Shown here piece after piece: positions 20,730 to 51,624 of a DNA stretch of 64,000 bases. The position numbers and the translations under genes were made by a program. Source of the DNA: Mycoplasmatota bacterium (GTDB taxonomy: Bacteria; Bacillota_I; Bacilli_A; Acholeplasmatales; Acholeplasmataceae); assembly GCA_018622495.1 (NCBI GenBank), contig CP076021.1, positions 1,426,501 to 1,490,500 of the forward strand. Reading direction: 5' to 3'. The notes under the pieces were generated by a model. It saw only the letters and a list, made by a program, of their open reading frames with translations. It was not told the origin of the DNA and did not search any database. Each line of letters begins with the position of its first letter. Position 1 is the first letter of the stretch.

Positions 20730-22353
20730 CAGACTGTTGAAAAAAGCCCCATTTAAAAACTCAAGGTTAATTTGAGATTAAAAAAGGGCTTTTTCTTTTG
20801 CCATTTTGATAAGAGTTTGACGATCAGAGTTGATAAATTAATGGATACGTGTTCTTTTAATGCTCTTTCAGCTAATCTTAATGCCATTTTTTTGACATTC
20901 ATGCATGAGAAAGTAAGCGATATATGATCGCTTGCTTTTTTTAAGCCCCGATAATAGGTGAATCGCCCCTGGTGTCTTTCCTTGAAATCTCCAAAACACC
21001 TTTCTATGGTCTGTTTCCTTAAGGCGTATTTCTCTTTTCCATATGCTGATTTTCTAATCTCATCAGAAAATCTAAAGTAGTCTTGGTACACGGAAATTCT
21101 AAGTGTTTTTTTCTTTTCTTTTGGACTCATACATTTGCTTTTAAATGGACATGCCTGACATATCGTCTGATCGCAGCTATACGCTTTATAGCCTTGACGG
21201 TTTGTGGTTTTATAGATGAGTGTTTCATAGTTTGGGCACGTATAACTATCTGTTTGCTCATCATATAAAAACTTATGATTGCCAAAGTCACCTTTATGAG
21301 CATTTGTACGCTTATAAGGCATTAAAGGGAGTATCTCGCTTGTCAGAGATTGCTTTGATGATCGGACCTGTTTTATAACCTGCATCTAATCCAGCAGCTT
21401 CAATAAGTCCTTCATACCTATCATTGATGCGTTCAAATACCTCTTTAAATATTTGTGAGTCATGGATGTTTGATGGTTTTAATACTTGTCCTAGAATAAA
21501 TCCATGTCTATCACACACTGCGTGTGAGTTATAGGAGAAATTATGTTCTTTTTCACCTTTATTAAGCCATCCTGAATCAGGATCTGTTTTACTTTCTTTT
21601 TTTCGTTTCTTTTCATCTTTTTGCTTTTGAGGTGGCAGCGGCTTTTTATCGTTTTCTTTGCGATCTTCATTAATCACTTCTAAAACTTCTTTTTCAAACA
21701 CACTTTTTTCTTTTTGAATCATTTTATCGACATATTTCTTTTTGTTTGCACTTGCTTTAATATGTGTGCTATCGATAAATATATAGGTTGGATCAATTAA
21801 GTTTGATGCTTCTATTTGTTTTAAAAATCCTTCAAAGACTTTCTCATAAATGTCGGTGTCATAAAATCGGTTCGTATAAGCTTTAGAATAGGTTGAATGA
21901 TCAGGTACATTTTCGTAAATGGTATACCCAAAAAATATCGATATGCGATATTGACTTTAATTTCTTCACAGGTCCTTCTCGATACTTGATATCCCAAAAG
22001 TTGATTTTAAAATTGCGATTTTAAAGAGAACGACTGGGTCATATCCTGGTCGTCCAATATCACTATAATAAGGTTTTGCTAACTCTCTGATAAATGTATA
22101 ATCCACATGTTTGATGAGTTTTCTTACTAAATGATCTTTTGGTACGATATCTTCCATCGTTGACATAATAAACTCATCTTTTGCTTGTGTCTTTTGATGA
22201 CTCATAATTCCACCGCCCTTATAATTGTATTTTATTATTTGACGATTCACTTTTATAGAGTTGTGTGATATTTTTCACAACTTTGTGGATAACTTTTTGT
22301 TCTATATTAAAAAAAGCACCTTTCACAAAGAAAAGTACTTTTTCAACAGTCTG
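20730..22353 (-). mobile_element. IS1182-like insertion sequence, copy 1
   Basis: 1624 bp bounded by inverted repeats CAGACTGTTGAAAAA and TTTTTCAACAGTCTG. One transposase gene on the minus strand. Near-identical to 58611-60232 (1622 bp); small indels account for the difference, and correcting them gives 1623 bp for both. Flanked by a 24-bp direct repeat that is a complete terminator hairpin, downstream of msrB. Confidence 0.9.
20753..22205 (-). CDS. IS1182-type transposase (copy 1), frame broken at three sites
   Basis: The start ATG at 22205 follows GGGCGGTGG; the longer frame from 22250 lacks this. Corrected length is 483 residues. Order: N-terminal 'DYTFIRELAKPYYSDIGRPGYDPVVLFKI', 'PDHSTYSKAYTNRFY', DDE-type 'YIFIDSTHIKASANK', 'NFSYNSHAVCDRHGFI', 'AGLDAGYKT', zinc-like Cys cluster 'CDQTICQACPFKSKCMSP', and 'RKQTIERCFGDFKERHQ' with the last acidic residue. 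Breaks are near 21336 (+1), 21911 (-1) and 21980 (+1). Each is at an expected CAGA; correction yields 'SSIRRTCEEIKVNIAYRYF', 'GIPFTENVPDHS' and 'AISDKQILPLMPYKR', which fit the family. Probably intact in the cell. Confidence 0.88.
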
Positions 22354-23473: not shown

Positions 23474-24682
23474 ATGACAAATATTAAAGTAACTTCTGAA
23501 ATTGGAAAATTAAAAACTGTATTAGTTCACAAACCTGGAGATGAACTTTTACATTTAACACCAGAATGGTTAATAGATTTGTTATTTGATGATATCCCTT
23601 GGCTTAAAAAAGCTAGAGAAGAACATCAAATATTTCAAGATATTTTAAAAGAACAAGGTGTTTTAGTCCTTGAGCTTGTCGATCTCGTCGTTGAAAGTTT
23701 ATCAACTAAAAAAATTCAAAAAGCATTCTTTGAAGAATTTCTTGATGAATCTGATGTTATTGATATAGAAACAAGAAGAAAAATATTAACATTTCTTTCT
23801 AAATTCACATTACATCAAGCAATCTCTAAAACAATGGCCGGTATTTTAAAAACTGATCTAATGGCATATAAAAAAACTCATTTAAAAGATTATATTGATG
23901 ACTACCCTTTTTATACAGATCCAATGCCAAATCTATATTTCACGAGAGACCCTTTTACTATCATTGACAATTCAATGAGTATCCATGCAATGTTTAAAGG
24001 TGCAAGAAAACGAGAAACGCTTTATGCAAAATATATTTATACTTATCATCCAAGTTTTAAGCATTTAAATCAAGTTTATGAAAGAACCGCTTCTTTCTCT
24101 TTAGAAGGTGGCGACATTCTCAATCTAAATCATAAAGTTGTTTTAGTGGGCATGAGTGAAAGAACTGAACCAGATGCAGTTGAAATACTAGCAAAAAATA
24201 TTTTTGATCAAACATCTTACAAAAAAGTACTTGCTGTGTTATTGCCTAAAAAAAGAACCTACATGCATTTGGATACTATATTTACACAAGTAGATTTTGA
24301 TAAATTTGTCATTCATCCCGATTTCTTAAGTAAACTCAAAATATATGAAATTATAAGTGATGAAACAAAAAAAAGTCGTATAAGTATCAAAGAGACTTAC
24401 ACAACTTTAAAATTAAGTTTAAAAAAACATTTACAACAAGATATTCATATGATCGCATGTGGTGGAAAAAACGCCATGTCTGCTGATCGTGAACAATGGA
24501 ATGATGGTGCCAATGTATTTGCTATCTCACCAGGTGTCGTCATTGCTTATGAAAGAAATGATTTAACAAATAAAAAACTTGAGCAAAATGGTATTAAAGT
24601 CATTCGAATACCATCAAGTGAATTATCAAGAGGTCGCGGTGGACCTAGATGTATGACGATGCCCCTTTTAAGAGATATATAA
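23474..24682 (+). CDS. arcA: Arginine deiminase
   Basis: 402 residues, full length. Guanidino-group enzyme motifs: 'GKLKTVLVHKPGDEL', 'PNLYFTRDPF' (substrate Asp), 'SLEGGDIL', 'RTYMHLDTIFT' (catalytic His and Asp), and nucleophile Cys in 'SRGRGGPRCMTMPL'. It converts arginine to citrulline and ammonia, the first step of the arginine dihydrolase route for ATP and pH defence. No arcB, arcC or arcD is next to it, which is unusual for a fermentative operon. RBS TTGGAGGA is 8 bases before the ATG. Confidence 0.94.
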   Translation: MTNIKVTSEIGKLKTVLVHKPGDELLHLTPEWLIDLLFDDIPWLKKAREEHQIFQDILKEQGVLVLELVDLVVESLSTKKIQKAFFEEFLDESDVIDIETRRKILTFLSKFTLHQAISKTMAGILKTDLMAYKKTHLKDYIDDYPFYTDPMPNLYFTRDPFTIIDNSMSIHAMFKGARKRETLYAKYIYTYHPSFKHLNQVYERTASFSLEGGDILNLNHKVVLVGMSERTEPDAVEILAKNIFDQTSYKKVLAVLLPKKRTYMHLDTIFTQVDFDKFVIHPDFLSKLKIYEIISDETKKSRISIKETYTTLKLSLKKHLQQDIHMIACGGKNAMSADREQWNDGANVFAISPGVVIAYERNDLTNKKLEQNGIKVIRIPSSELSRGRGGPRCMTMPLLRDI

Positions 24683-35502: not shown

Positions 35503-35668
35503 GTCTACGCTTTTACCCTTCCGTAAATACGCTCGCTCATAGATCATTGGGTAATGATTTATAAACAGTCATATGTCTCTTAAACATATGCCCAGCGTGA
35601 CTTTCACACTTCGGCAAACACCCCTTTCCTTTAAAAAGTACTCTTGGTGCATGCAACCTCAATATTTA
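35503..35668 (-). ncRNA. Lysine riboswitch (L box)
   Basis: Read on the minus strand the leader has the L-box core in order: TTGAGGTTGC, then AAGAGTA, then GGAAAGGGGTGTTTGCCGAAG, then GCTGGGC, a GACTGT element, and TACGGAAGGGT near the 3' side. A terminator follows directly and then lysA, a lysine pathway gene. This combination is well known for lysine-sensing riboswitches that shut off transcription when lysine is high. Exact aptamer ends are approximate. Confidence 0.9.
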
Positions 35669-35688
35669 CAGTGATTTAATTTCATGTT

Positions 35689-49022: not shown

Positions 49023-49156
49023 GGGTAATCCTCCAATTATATTTAGGTATATTGCTATTTTATCATGTTAAAAACATTTTTGTAAACTAAATGGATTTTA
49101 ACGTGTATCATTAATGATATAAATATTAGTAAATACGTTTTCATAAATTTTTATGA

Positions 49157-49185
49157 TTGCATAAAAATAATAATCATGTTACTAT
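49157..49185 (+). promoter_or_regulatory. Promoter of the amino-acid ABC operon leader
   Basis: -35 TTGCAT (49157-49162), 17-bp spacer, -10 TACTAT (49180-49185), just before the structured leader. Confidence 0.55.
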
Positions 49186-49191
49186 TTGAAT

Positions 49192-49380
49192 ACACAAAGC
49201 AAAACCGCTTTGATTTCCAAGATAGGCTATTAAGTCCTTGAGTATATCAAGATGAATTAATCTTCGATACTTAACGTTTATAGTCCTTGAGTATAGAAGA
49301 TATTTTTTTTATTTTCTTTTTTCAAGGATGCTGACGTTCCTTGTTATATCAAAGTCTCGCTTGTGAGACTTTTTTTTTAA
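49192..49380 (+). ncRNA. Structured leader with terminator upstream of amino-acid ABC genes (unassigned riboswitch/attenuator)
   Basis: About 190 nt. A closing stem CTTTGAT (49208-49214) can pair with ATCAAAG (49348-49354). The latter abuts and overlaps the terminator stem AAAGTCTC / GAGACTTT followed by nine T (to 49378). Inside are two copies of AGTCCTTGAGTATA (49233-49246 and 49282-49295), a TTAAGT/ACTTAA stem, AAGAT/ATCTT, and a hairpin CAAGGA...TCCTTG (from about 49323). TCCTTGA of the repeats is also complementary to TCAAGGA, giving alternative folds. It lacks L-box or T-box signatures. The RBS (AAAGGAGAG) follows the terminator. I do not recognise a known class. Confidence 0.6.
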
Positions 49381-49395
49381 AAAGGAGAGAAGAAA

Positions 49396-50202
49396 ATGAA
49401 AAAAATATTGTTAAGTTTATTAGTCTTAACTGCAACACTTTCTTTAGTTGCATGTGATTCACAGTCATCAAATGTATTTAAATTTATATTAGATGATAGT
49501 TTTGATGAGTTTTTAGTGATGGAAACATCTGCTGATTATCCACCGTTCGAAAACATTGAAGAGGTTGATGGAAAAAATACTGTTGTTGGTATTGATATAG
49601 AAATTGCAAAAGCTATTGCACTTGCAGCTGGTAAAAACTTACAAGTTGTACATAAAGGTTTTGATTTCTTAATTACTGATATTCAAAATGGTAAAGCTGA
49701 TTTTGCTATTGCAGCAATTACACCGACACCAGAACGTTTAGAACAAGTTGATTTTTCTGATGTCTATTTAGATAATGAAGATGAACAAGTTGCAGTGATT
49801 AAATCAAGTGATGCAACTAATTATGTAACAATTGATGATATCAATTTAGAAACTGTTAGAGTTGGTGCACAAACAGGAAGTTTACAATCTTATATACTTC
49901 AAGATCAAGCTCCAGAATCGTATGCAACATATATTCAAGACTTAAATACTTTATTTGAAAACTTAAATAATGGTCAAATCGAAGTTTTATTATCAGAAAA
50001 AACAGTTGCTGAAACTTATATTGCTGATGAATATAGTGATCTTCAAATTGCTTTTAGCGTGTACTCACAATATAACGGTAACGCAATTGCTGTTCAAAAA
50101 GATAATGCTGCTTTATTAGCAATTATTAATGAAACGATTGCGACGCTAAAAGAATCTGGCCAAATTGATACTTGGGTTGAATATTACTCAGCACAAAGTT
50201 AA
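49396..50202 (+). CDS. Polar amino-acid ABC transporter, substrate-binding lipoprotein
   Basis: 268 residues. Lipoprotein signal with lipobox 'LVAC' (Cys 20). SBP_bac_3 fold: 'METSADYPPFENIEE', 'VVGIDIEIAKAIALAAGK', 'ADFAIAAITPTPERLEQVDFSDVY', 'VGAQTGSLQSYIL'. The binding Arg in 'PTPER' and Asp of 'VGIDIEIA' match the Gln/Lys/Arg/His binding proteins. Followed directly by permease (1-bp overlap). Ligand cannot be read; glutamine, lysine or arginine are plausible. Confidence 0.92.
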   Translation: MKKILLSLLVLTATLSLVACDSQSSNVFKFILDDSFDEFLVMETSADYPPFENIEEVDGKNTVVGIDIEIAKAIALAAGKNLQVVHKGFDFLITDIQNGKADFAIAAITPTPERLEQVDFSDVYLDNEDEQVAVIKSSDATNYVTIDDINLETVRVGAQTGSLQSYILQDQAPESYATYIQDLNTLFENLNNGQIEVLLSEKTVAETYIADEYSDLQIAFSVYSQYNGNAIAVQKDNAALLAIINETIATLKESGQIDTWVEYYSAQS

Positions 50203-50894
50203 TGATGATTACTGCATTAGATTTTGATTTTTTACTTAATCAAAATAATCTTTCAATGCTAGCTCATGGCCTTTTTATGACCTTGATTTTAGCATTTCTT
50301 GCTGTACTACTAGGTGCCATTATCGCATTAATTCCAGCGTTTATGCGTATGTCAAAAAATAAATTACTAAAAACCATAGCAACTACTTACGTTGAAGTTA
50401 TCCGTGGAACACCGATGTTAGTTCAAGTTTTAATTATTTATCAACTGATGAAATTACCTTTAATTTTATTTTTAGGTATTGATATGGGTTCATTTATTCC
50501 AGGACTTGTTGCATTAGTCATTAATTCTTCTGCTTATATCAGTGAGGTTATAAGAGCTGGTATATTAGCAGTTGATCAAGGTCAAAGTGAAGCTGCAAGA
50601 TCTCTTGGTATGTCACAAAAACAAACCATGATTAAAATTGTTTTACCTCAAGCAATTAATAATATTATTCCTGCACTTGGTAATGAATTCGTAACCATCA
50701 TTAAAGAAACTTCTATCTTTATGTATTTAGGAGTTGCTGAATTAATGTTTCAAATCAATATTATTAAATCAAATACATTTAGAGTCACAGAAGTCTATAT
50801 CGTCGCTGGTATATTATATATGATACTAACAATTCCACTTTCAAAGGTGATGAATATGCTTGAAAGGAGATTACGCTATGCCTATGCCAAGTAA
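50202..50894 (+). CDS. Polar amino-acid ABC transporter permease
   Basis: 230 residues, HisM/GlnP type. Several membrane segments beginning '[26 protein letters not shown]', family motif '[20 protein letters not shown]', EAA loop '[26 protein letters not shown]'. Start overlaps the binding-protein stop by 1 bp. Its end overlaps the ATPase start by about 17 bp, so three genes form one unit. Confidence 0.92.
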
Positions 50895-51624
50895 AATGAT
50901 AGAAATTAATCATTTAACTAAAACTTTTAATCAAAGTATACACGCTGTAGATGATGTTAATCTATTTATTAATAAAGGTGAAGTCGTTTCCATTATTGGT
51001 CCAAGTGGTAGTGGTAAATCAACCTTACTTAGATGCATAAATTTTATGGAAGTGCCAACTGCTGGACAAGTTATTTTTGAAGGAACAACATTATCAATCG
51101 ATAAAAATATAAATGAGCTTAGACAAAAAATTGGTATGGTTTTTCAATCTTTTAATCTTTTTCCTCATCTTAATGTCTTAAACAATATTATTGTATCTCT
51201 TACAACAGTAAAAAAAATAGACAAAGATGAAGCAGTTATCATTGCTAAAAATTTATTAAAACGTGTTGGTCTAAGTGATAAAATCGATACTTTTCCATCT
51301 CAATTATCCGGTGGACAAAAACAAAGAATCGCCATCGCAAGAGCACTCGCTATGAATCCGGATGTCATGCTATTTGATGAACCTACTTCTGCTTTAGATC
51401 CCGAGATGGTCGGTGAAGTTTTAGCGGTCATGAAAGAACTTGCAAAAGCTGGCATGACGATGGTCATTGTGACTCATGAAATGGGATTTGCAAAAGAGGT
51501 ATCTGATAGAGTGATTTTTATGGCTGATGGAAAGATCGTTGAACAAGGAAATCCCAAACAAATTTTTAATCAACCTCAAAAAGATAGAACAATAGATTTT
51601 TTAAAAAGAGTAAATCATATATAA
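50878..51624 (+). CDS. Polar amino-acid ABC transporter ATPase
   Basis: About 248 residues from ATG 50878, chosen because AAAGGAGA lies 8 bases upstream inside the permease gene; a longer TTG start is less likely. Walker A '[15 protein letters not shown]', Q-loop '[13 protein letters not shown]', signature '[17 protein letters not shown]', Walker B '[15 protein letters not shown]', switch '[13 protein letters not shown]'. GlnQ/HisP family. Energises uptake with the two genes upstream. Confidence 0.93.

Follow-up and report, generated by a model that had tools for sequence, protein, structure and literature searches.

Among the described leader RNAs closest to the one analyzed here, the lysine riboswitch (L box, RF00168) is an amino-acid-sensing leader, as is proposed for ours, with a multi-stem model of 182 positions; T-boxes (RF00230) bind tRNA via a specifier and a UGGN bulge; and the glycine riboswitch (gcvT), whose aptamers are doubled, has an amino-acid ligand, a parallel to the ligand proposed below. 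According to the accessible part of one publication, the glycine riboswitch occurs upstream of degradation genes, and ppGpp riboswitches switch amino-acid genes ON (PMC7266159), a type of control that ykkC subtype 2a shares with the logic proposed here for our motif. The claimed fungal arginine riboswitch, for which arginine is likewise the proposed ligand, is set beside our motif by description, not by sequence, and is insufficiently supported according to the accessible part of a 2022 review (PMC10043782). In the open-licence PMC literature, we found no described bacterial riboswitch for arginine, citrulline, or ornithine, the term "arginine riboswitch" occurring there in one paper, which in its accessible part deals with magnesium. 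The Acholeplasma motif located before aroF, as given in the accessible part of its source (PMC8632094), is different from the present one.

The leader studied here lies at 49192-49380 of the window (the whole 64,000-nucleotide stretch of an Acholeplasmataceae genome that was analyzed, to which all coordinates refer unless a locus is named), before an amino-acid ABC transporter operon. The preliminary description could assign it to no L box, T box, or other known class; in line with this, neither the window leader nor any of 17 related motif loci reached the gathering score of an Rfam 15 family, and RF00230 gave no match in the window leader. The L box that had been noted elsewhere in the window was recovered at 35522-35670 (− strand, 70 bits), RF00168 matching only there and not at 49192-49380. 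Where the lysine riboswitch is a large multi-stem RNA, the core of our motif is an internal loop of about 30-60 nt. Arginine-type T-boxes take the same place in 10 of 28 orthologous operons and form tandems with the motif ahead of argG, but the motif shows, by eye, no conservation of a triplet or of a UGGN, for which reason its reading as a tRNA-binding mini T-box was dropped. Unlike the glycine riboswitch, the motif doubles either its 3' half only (window) or whole units with their own terminators (elsewhere). It has no Rfam match to the glycine riboswitch or to ykkC, and its genes are arginine-related.

Architecture of the leader and its operon

The features to which the text refers are the following.

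23474..24682, + strand: arcA, arginine deiminase (TIGR01078, 477.9 bits, slightly below the cut-off of 489.1)
49135..49142, + strand: cre-like ACGTTTTC, upstream of the promoter (match to the pattern AACGTTT[TA]C)
49157..49185, + strand: probable promoter, TTGCAT, 17-nt spacer, TGT-TACTAT (extended -10; by eye)
49195..49212, + strand: hairpin P0, CAAAGC/GCUUUG, competitor of the P1 5' strand (folding)
49207..49214, + strand: closing stem P1, 5' strand GCUUUGAU, with an outer extension at 49193-49199
49219..49223, + strand: core 5' half AAGAT, conserved (R3 match)
49224..49230, + strand: P2 5' strand AGGCTAT, able to pair with either 3' half (folding; P2 covariation)
49236..49246, + strand: first 3' half CCT-TGAGTATA, short P2 (R3 match, folding)
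49239..49273, + strand: hairpin A, hiding the first TGAGTATA (folding; equivalent hairpin in G014)
49274..49337, + strand: hairpin B, hiding the second 3' half and including TCCTTGA/TCAAGGA (folding; equivalent in G014)
49280..49295, + strand: second 3' half ATAGTCCT-TGAGTATA, long P2 (folding)
49348..49355, + strand: closing stem P1, 3' strand AUCAAAGU, overlapping the terminator 5' arm
49351..49378, + strand: intrinsic terminator AAAGTCTC-GCTTGT-GAGACTTT plus T-run (terminator scan)
49396..50202, + strand: SBP_bac_3 lipoprotein, substrate-binding, arginine-type (family profile match)
50202..50894, + strand: permease of the HEQRo family (TIGR01726, above cut-off)
50860..51624, + strand: ABC ATPase, TcyN/GlnQ-like (family profile match)

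The closing stem, the two identical repeats, the alternative TCCTTGA/TCAAGGA pairings, and the terminator before the RBS, all of which had been noted in the preliminary description, could each be located. Folding places P1 at 49207-49214/49348-49355, extended outward by CACAAAG/CUUGUG. The repeats AGTCCTTGAGTATA (49233-49246 and 49282-49295) are identical over 14 bases and 49 bases apart, a repeat of this length being found in none of 1000 dinucleotide shuffles of 49187-49381, where the longest has 12. TCCTTGA lies at 49235 and 49284, and TCAAGGA at 49322. The terminator scan found one terminator against 0.2 expected, its stem (49351-49372) being followed by the T-run, the RBS, and the ATG at 49396. 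As for the claim that the closing stem abuts the terminator with its 3' strand, the contact is real, but it is more than abutment: the P1 3' strand and the terminator 5' arm share 49351-49355, so that P1 and terminator are mutually exclusive and, because P1 captures terminator strands, core and P1 together form an antiterminator.

The predicted fold of the leader (−58 kcal/mol, z = −5.4) is equaled in stability by none of 200 shuffles. Forcing P1 gives a predicted −49.6 against −52.0 kcal/mol for the free fold, a cost of 2.4 kcal/mol, and in the folding of growing prefixes, P1 is present at 49360 and the terminator has taken its place at 49372. The window copy has one 5' half and two rival 3' halves, a layout also seen in other genera; its P2 can form as AGGCUAU/AUAGUCCU with the second 3' half or as the shorter AGG/CCU with the first. 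Counting against the explanation that we favor, the predicted folds of the window leader place both 3' halves in hairpins, outside the core.

Downstream, the best family for the SBP is TIGR01096 (lysine/arginine/ornithine), with a score under the cut-off, and its closest solved structures are 4ymx, 4i62, and 4h5f, of which we take 4ymx and 4h5f to be arginine-binding proteins. The product of the window arcA is a likely consumer of the imported arginine. On the other strand, at 20753-21722 (−), two neighboring frames resemble by eye pieces of one transposase-like gene.

A conserved core in orthologous leaders

When the SBP was searched for in the 88 genomes available for the bacterial family, 28 full-length orthologs were recovered, weaker paralogous SBP matches being left out and an ortholog cut by a contig end (G047) being dropped before the leaders were counted. 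When their 256-nt upstream regions were compared, 18 of the 28, the window included, displayed a core CAAGAY-[P2]-YGAGYAUA followed by a terminator, the first base varying in two, and the remaining 10 displayed a T-box, confirmed by Rfam in every case. Sixteen of the 18 motif leaders are single units, and in the other two, those of the window and of G014, the 3' half is doubled. A promoter sequence similar to that of the window is conserved in alignment A1, the window promoter itself falling short of the score required by the consensus scan.

AAGA and GAG.AT do not vary among the 35 units of alignment A4, from which G067, a near-duplicate row of A3, was omitted. P2 is the best-supported helix of the core: in the 16 single leaders, all 4 pairs are changed on both sides; over the 18 leaders, 97.2% of it is paired; and over the 35 units, 98.6% is paired with 51 cells changed on both sides, when none of 500 shuffles reached as high on pairing and double changes and slid versions gave 43-81% (maximum 81.4%). 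The absence of conserved pairing in relatives had been named beforehand as what would refute the notion of an amino-acid-related leader, be it a new aptamer or an attenuator; this covariation, along with the Rfam null, supports that notion instead.

P1 varies in sequence while each strand retains its partner: in A2, 86.7% of its outer cells are paired, and double-sided changes affect 3 of 8 pairs. Across 36 units, cognate P1 strands pair at a mean of −13.5 kcal/mol against −8.8 for non-cognate ones, and in only 9 of the 36 is the pairing superior to that of dinucleotide-shuffled 5' strands (≤15/300). The signal is weak among the A-rich family-1 leaders (1 of 16, one row being mis-anchored) and moderate among the others (8 of 20). 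In all 16 single leaders, the P1 fold, with the core open, and the terminator fold are predicted to be mutually exclusive and to lie within about 5 kcal/mol of each other; in predicted folds, the expression platform likewise excludes the closed core. Leaders of related genes show what is looked for in a riboswitch, a conserved aptamer-like core with covarying stems. Relative to the preliminary description, the conserved unit is now AAGAY-[P2]-YGAGYAUA closed by P1, P1 is an antiterminator, and the context suggests arginine.

Distribution, tandem arrays, and argG-type leaders

A DNA similarity search with the leader returned mostly low-complexity matches, the one meaningful match being G014 (71%), before the orthologous gene. 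The covariance models were of varying reach: R1, built on the full single leader, was specific and too narrow, with 16 strong matches and the rest chance-like; R2 was searched in 395 genomes of the class, 160 of the order, and 28 of family f19; and R3 in 392 genomes of the phylum, in 43 from the order to which G432 belongs, and in 15 from family f9. R3 matches the window at 49207-49260 (39.8 bits, E 9.7e-5), the window being one of its 35 training rows. Upon locus reading, 35 motif genomes were retained: 18 belong to f1, 5 to f3 of the same order, and, elsewhere in the same class, 10 to f19 and 2 to f9. In this covariance search for homologous leaders, of the kind proposed in the preliminary description for SBP operons, the core stands, by reading, before an SBP-type transporter in 29 of these genomes, before argG in 5, and before a HAD hydrolase gene in 1. 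For the 17 genomes outside f1, which span three families, the figures are 11, 5, and 1; three of these transporter genes, scanned against NCBIfam, are lysine/arginine/ornithine or glutamine SBPs below cut-off, the remaining ones being recognised by eye, and three argG genes were confirmed by NCBIfam (two above cut-off, one partial). In the phylum sample, R3 matched in 9 of 392 genomes, all inside the class and none outside. Named records that were read or recognised as carrying the motif are metagenome genomes labeled Bacilli, Bacillota, or Mollicutes.

Several candidates were rejected on reading: the R1 matches L084 and L085 and, as coding or unrelated sequence, the R2 matches in G006, G294, G233, G224, G239, and G396 (6 of 17 genomes in the class search), in G124, G117, G131, and again G006 (order search), and the second matches G356:C113 and G338:C4 (f19 search). 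Weak R2 order matches in G007, G077, G081, G082, G102, G109, and G130 were left unread and outside the count. A pattern scan of genome contigs gave 14 stretches, of which those from Bacilli (L166, L168, L171, L172, and L176, the last assigned by match coordinates only) are motif loci; the 9 non-Bacilli stretches stayed unread and outside the count, and two of them, L175 and L167, might conceivably be motif loci given their R3 scores of 33.4 and 32.3 bits.

The motif also recurs within leaders. Before the SBP gene, G432 has a pair of complete units, both with a terminator of their own, and three units are found in each of G303, G356, G297, G222, and G367/L172. The combination of one AAGAU with two GAGYAU halves recurs in G303, G356, and G297, where the final unit shows it, and in G338 and G332, where it is the second unit; in these latter two, the second half gives a P2 of 7 bp (AGAAGUA/UACUUCU) against 4 bp for the first. 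Hairpins hiding a 3' half are seen in the window, in G014, and, by eye, in G332. At L103 1690-1770, behind two motif units and before the SBP gene, we observed a small frame that begins with MRGKKK, together with a third hairpin followed by a T-run, perhaps a third attenuator.

Leaders of the argG type have an invariant AUAAUUAUG/CAUAAUUAU pair after the core, interleaved in pseudoknot-like fashion with a varying B/B' helix (GAAAGGAC/GUCCUUUC, GGAAGAACA/UGUCCUUCC, GACUAGC/GCUAGUC, and others), which is listed by eye because the alignment shifts its columns. This platform was found at L128, L129, L134, L144, L145, and L110, one transporter leader, that of G230, being included. The g17 argG-type leaders have an extra 5' hairpin, with a UUGGGC-type loop in 4 of 5. 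At L145 (G035), the motif leader stands before a HAD-type hydrolase gene, not argG, and a search of that genome for argG found none.

A probable link to arginine

Beyond the class of the SBP, several observations converge on arginine as the signal. The T-boxes of the orthologous leaders carry, by eye, CGU (9) or CGC (1) right after GAA and before a purine, a register that we adopt as specifier since it yields one amino acid, arginine, throughout, when the other register would give valine and alanine. Secondly, a search of 44 genomes recovered argG in 5, in each of which it lies directly behind the motif, with a T-box at gathering between motif and argG at 3 of the 5 loci; the specifiers of the argG-leader T-boxes of L129 and L144 are not readable as arginine. 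Thirdly, arcA is present in 15 of the 18 motif genomes of the family (the window's included) against 0 of 10 T-box genomes (Fisher p 2e-5), although these genomes are not phylogenetically independent and, by genus, the contrast of 3/4 motif against 0/3 T-box genera involves too few for significance. The 16 motif genomes searched beyond the family yielded arcA in 3 cases. Finally, short ORFs with an Arg-Arg pair are located downstream of the motif units and ahead of the SBP gene at six f19 loci (L104, L106, L153, L140, L149, and L139), such as MRRNKAITKNGVVME, MRRKISIEEKEWKSTI, MRRNNINTRNGVVIELALY, and MKTKIRRPYFFL, plus two longer ones, the codons being CGGCGG three times, CGGAGA, CGGCGT, and CGGCGA. 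These six were chosen after being sighted during reading, and the other f19 and f9 transporter loci show none by eye; they probably provide a further, arginine-dependent control by leader peptides.

Upstream of the promoter, the pattern AACGTTT[TA]C is found in 16 of the 18 A1 motif leaders (256-nt windows), the rows of G000 and G014 not showing it, and ACGTTTTC resembles what we take to be the cre consensus. These cre-like elements suggest a catabolite control of the arginine importer, which would fit a catabolic use of arginine.

Proposed mechanism and alternative explanations

It is very likely, in our judgment, that this is a real, conserved, and apparently undescribed antitermination leader. 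The analysis shows its conservation, the P2 covariation, the exclusion between P1 and terminator in predicted folds, and the gene context. Its class is probably that of metabolite riboswitches. We propose, with a probability of about 60%, an undescribed cis-regulatory RNA class that is probably a metabolite riboswitch, with arginine or a closely related arginine-pathway compound as ligand, and that switches import ON; the binding of a small molecule, its identity as arginine, and the turning ON of the genes upon binding are what we infer from the above. That the ligand is arginine itself we would put at even odds. A little short of this comes the fuller picture of a natural bacterial arginine riboswitch class with a tiny internal-loop aptamer, switching import ON, arranged in tandem arrays and stacked with T-boxes and Arg-Arg ORFs, and in which some leaders, the window's included, share one 5' half between two competing 3' halves in a strand-exchange design.

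Under the proposed mechanism, the sensor would be the conserved internal loop AAGAY/YGAGYAUA between P1 and P2. When the core is stabilised, P1 would take the terminator 5' arm (in most units, also the loop or the 3' arm) and allow read-through into the importer operon; when it is not, the terminator would form. ON switches are typically laid out in this way, with P1 competing directly for terminator strands; stabilization of the core by a ligand would therefore be expected to increase read-through. In the window copy, the free 3' halves would be hidden in hairpins A and B, perhaps as a second decision step. Induction by arginine would be sensible in genomes that have both importer and arginine deiminase, and the T-box would exert starvation control in genomes without arcA. 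An arginine-ON switch before argG would be odd and counts against our explanation, as do the HAD hydrolase gene behind the G035 leader, the SBP matches under curated cut-offs, the small number of units whose P1 outdoes shuffles, and the phylogenetic dependence of the arcA association. Since argG-type leaders have another platform, their direction may differ from that of transporter leaders, and with OFF control of argG by arginine, one ligand would fit all loci.

The alternative that survives best, though we hold it to be unlikely, is a riboswitch for another signal of arginine need, such as citrulline, ornithine, or an alarmone like ppGpp. Being turned ON by such a signal would fit importer and argG alike; the ON-type platform of the predicted folds and the tandem arrangement with a T-box before argG speak for it, and ppGpp riboswitches work ON at amino-acid genes in the accessible part of the literature (PMC7266159); however, the genes behind the motif are almost exclusively arginine genes, and the arcA association suggests induction by substrate. 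Slightly less likely again is that the core is bound by an arginine-responsive antiterminator protein, of the LicT type or another RNA-binding regulator. A protein might recognize its AGUA/GA-like internal loop, and the P1-over-terminator layout is compatible with such control, but no candidate RNA-binding regulator adjoins the motif in the stretches read, and tandem complete units recur as they do in riboswitch arrays.

A leader-peptide attenuator, in which a short ORF of the window would couple ribosome stalling to the terminator, seems highly improbable: although a 15-codon TTG-start frame (MNTQSKTALISKIGY, from about 49187) can be spotted by eye and Arg-Arg ORFs follow the motif at six f19 loci, this weak frame overlaps P0/P1 with neither an Arg codon nor an RBS (by eye), and what is conserved is an RNA motif, the flanks varying in relatives. 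Least credible of all is a degenerate form of an RNA class already described (L box, T box, ykkC, etc.), a reading which the AGUA loop-E-like sequence might bring to mind by its presumed likeness to lysine and T-box RNAs but which is refuted at Rfam thresholds, the best sub-threshold matches being unrelated models.

If the riboswitch that we favor does bind arginine, it would fill a gap among amino-acid riboswitches and offer a very small aptamer for structural work, the single-unit leaders being short enough for direct testing. It would also mean that, in these bacteria, one amino acid is sensed before one gene by stacked layers of RNA, riboswitch units being combined with a T-box or a leader ORF.
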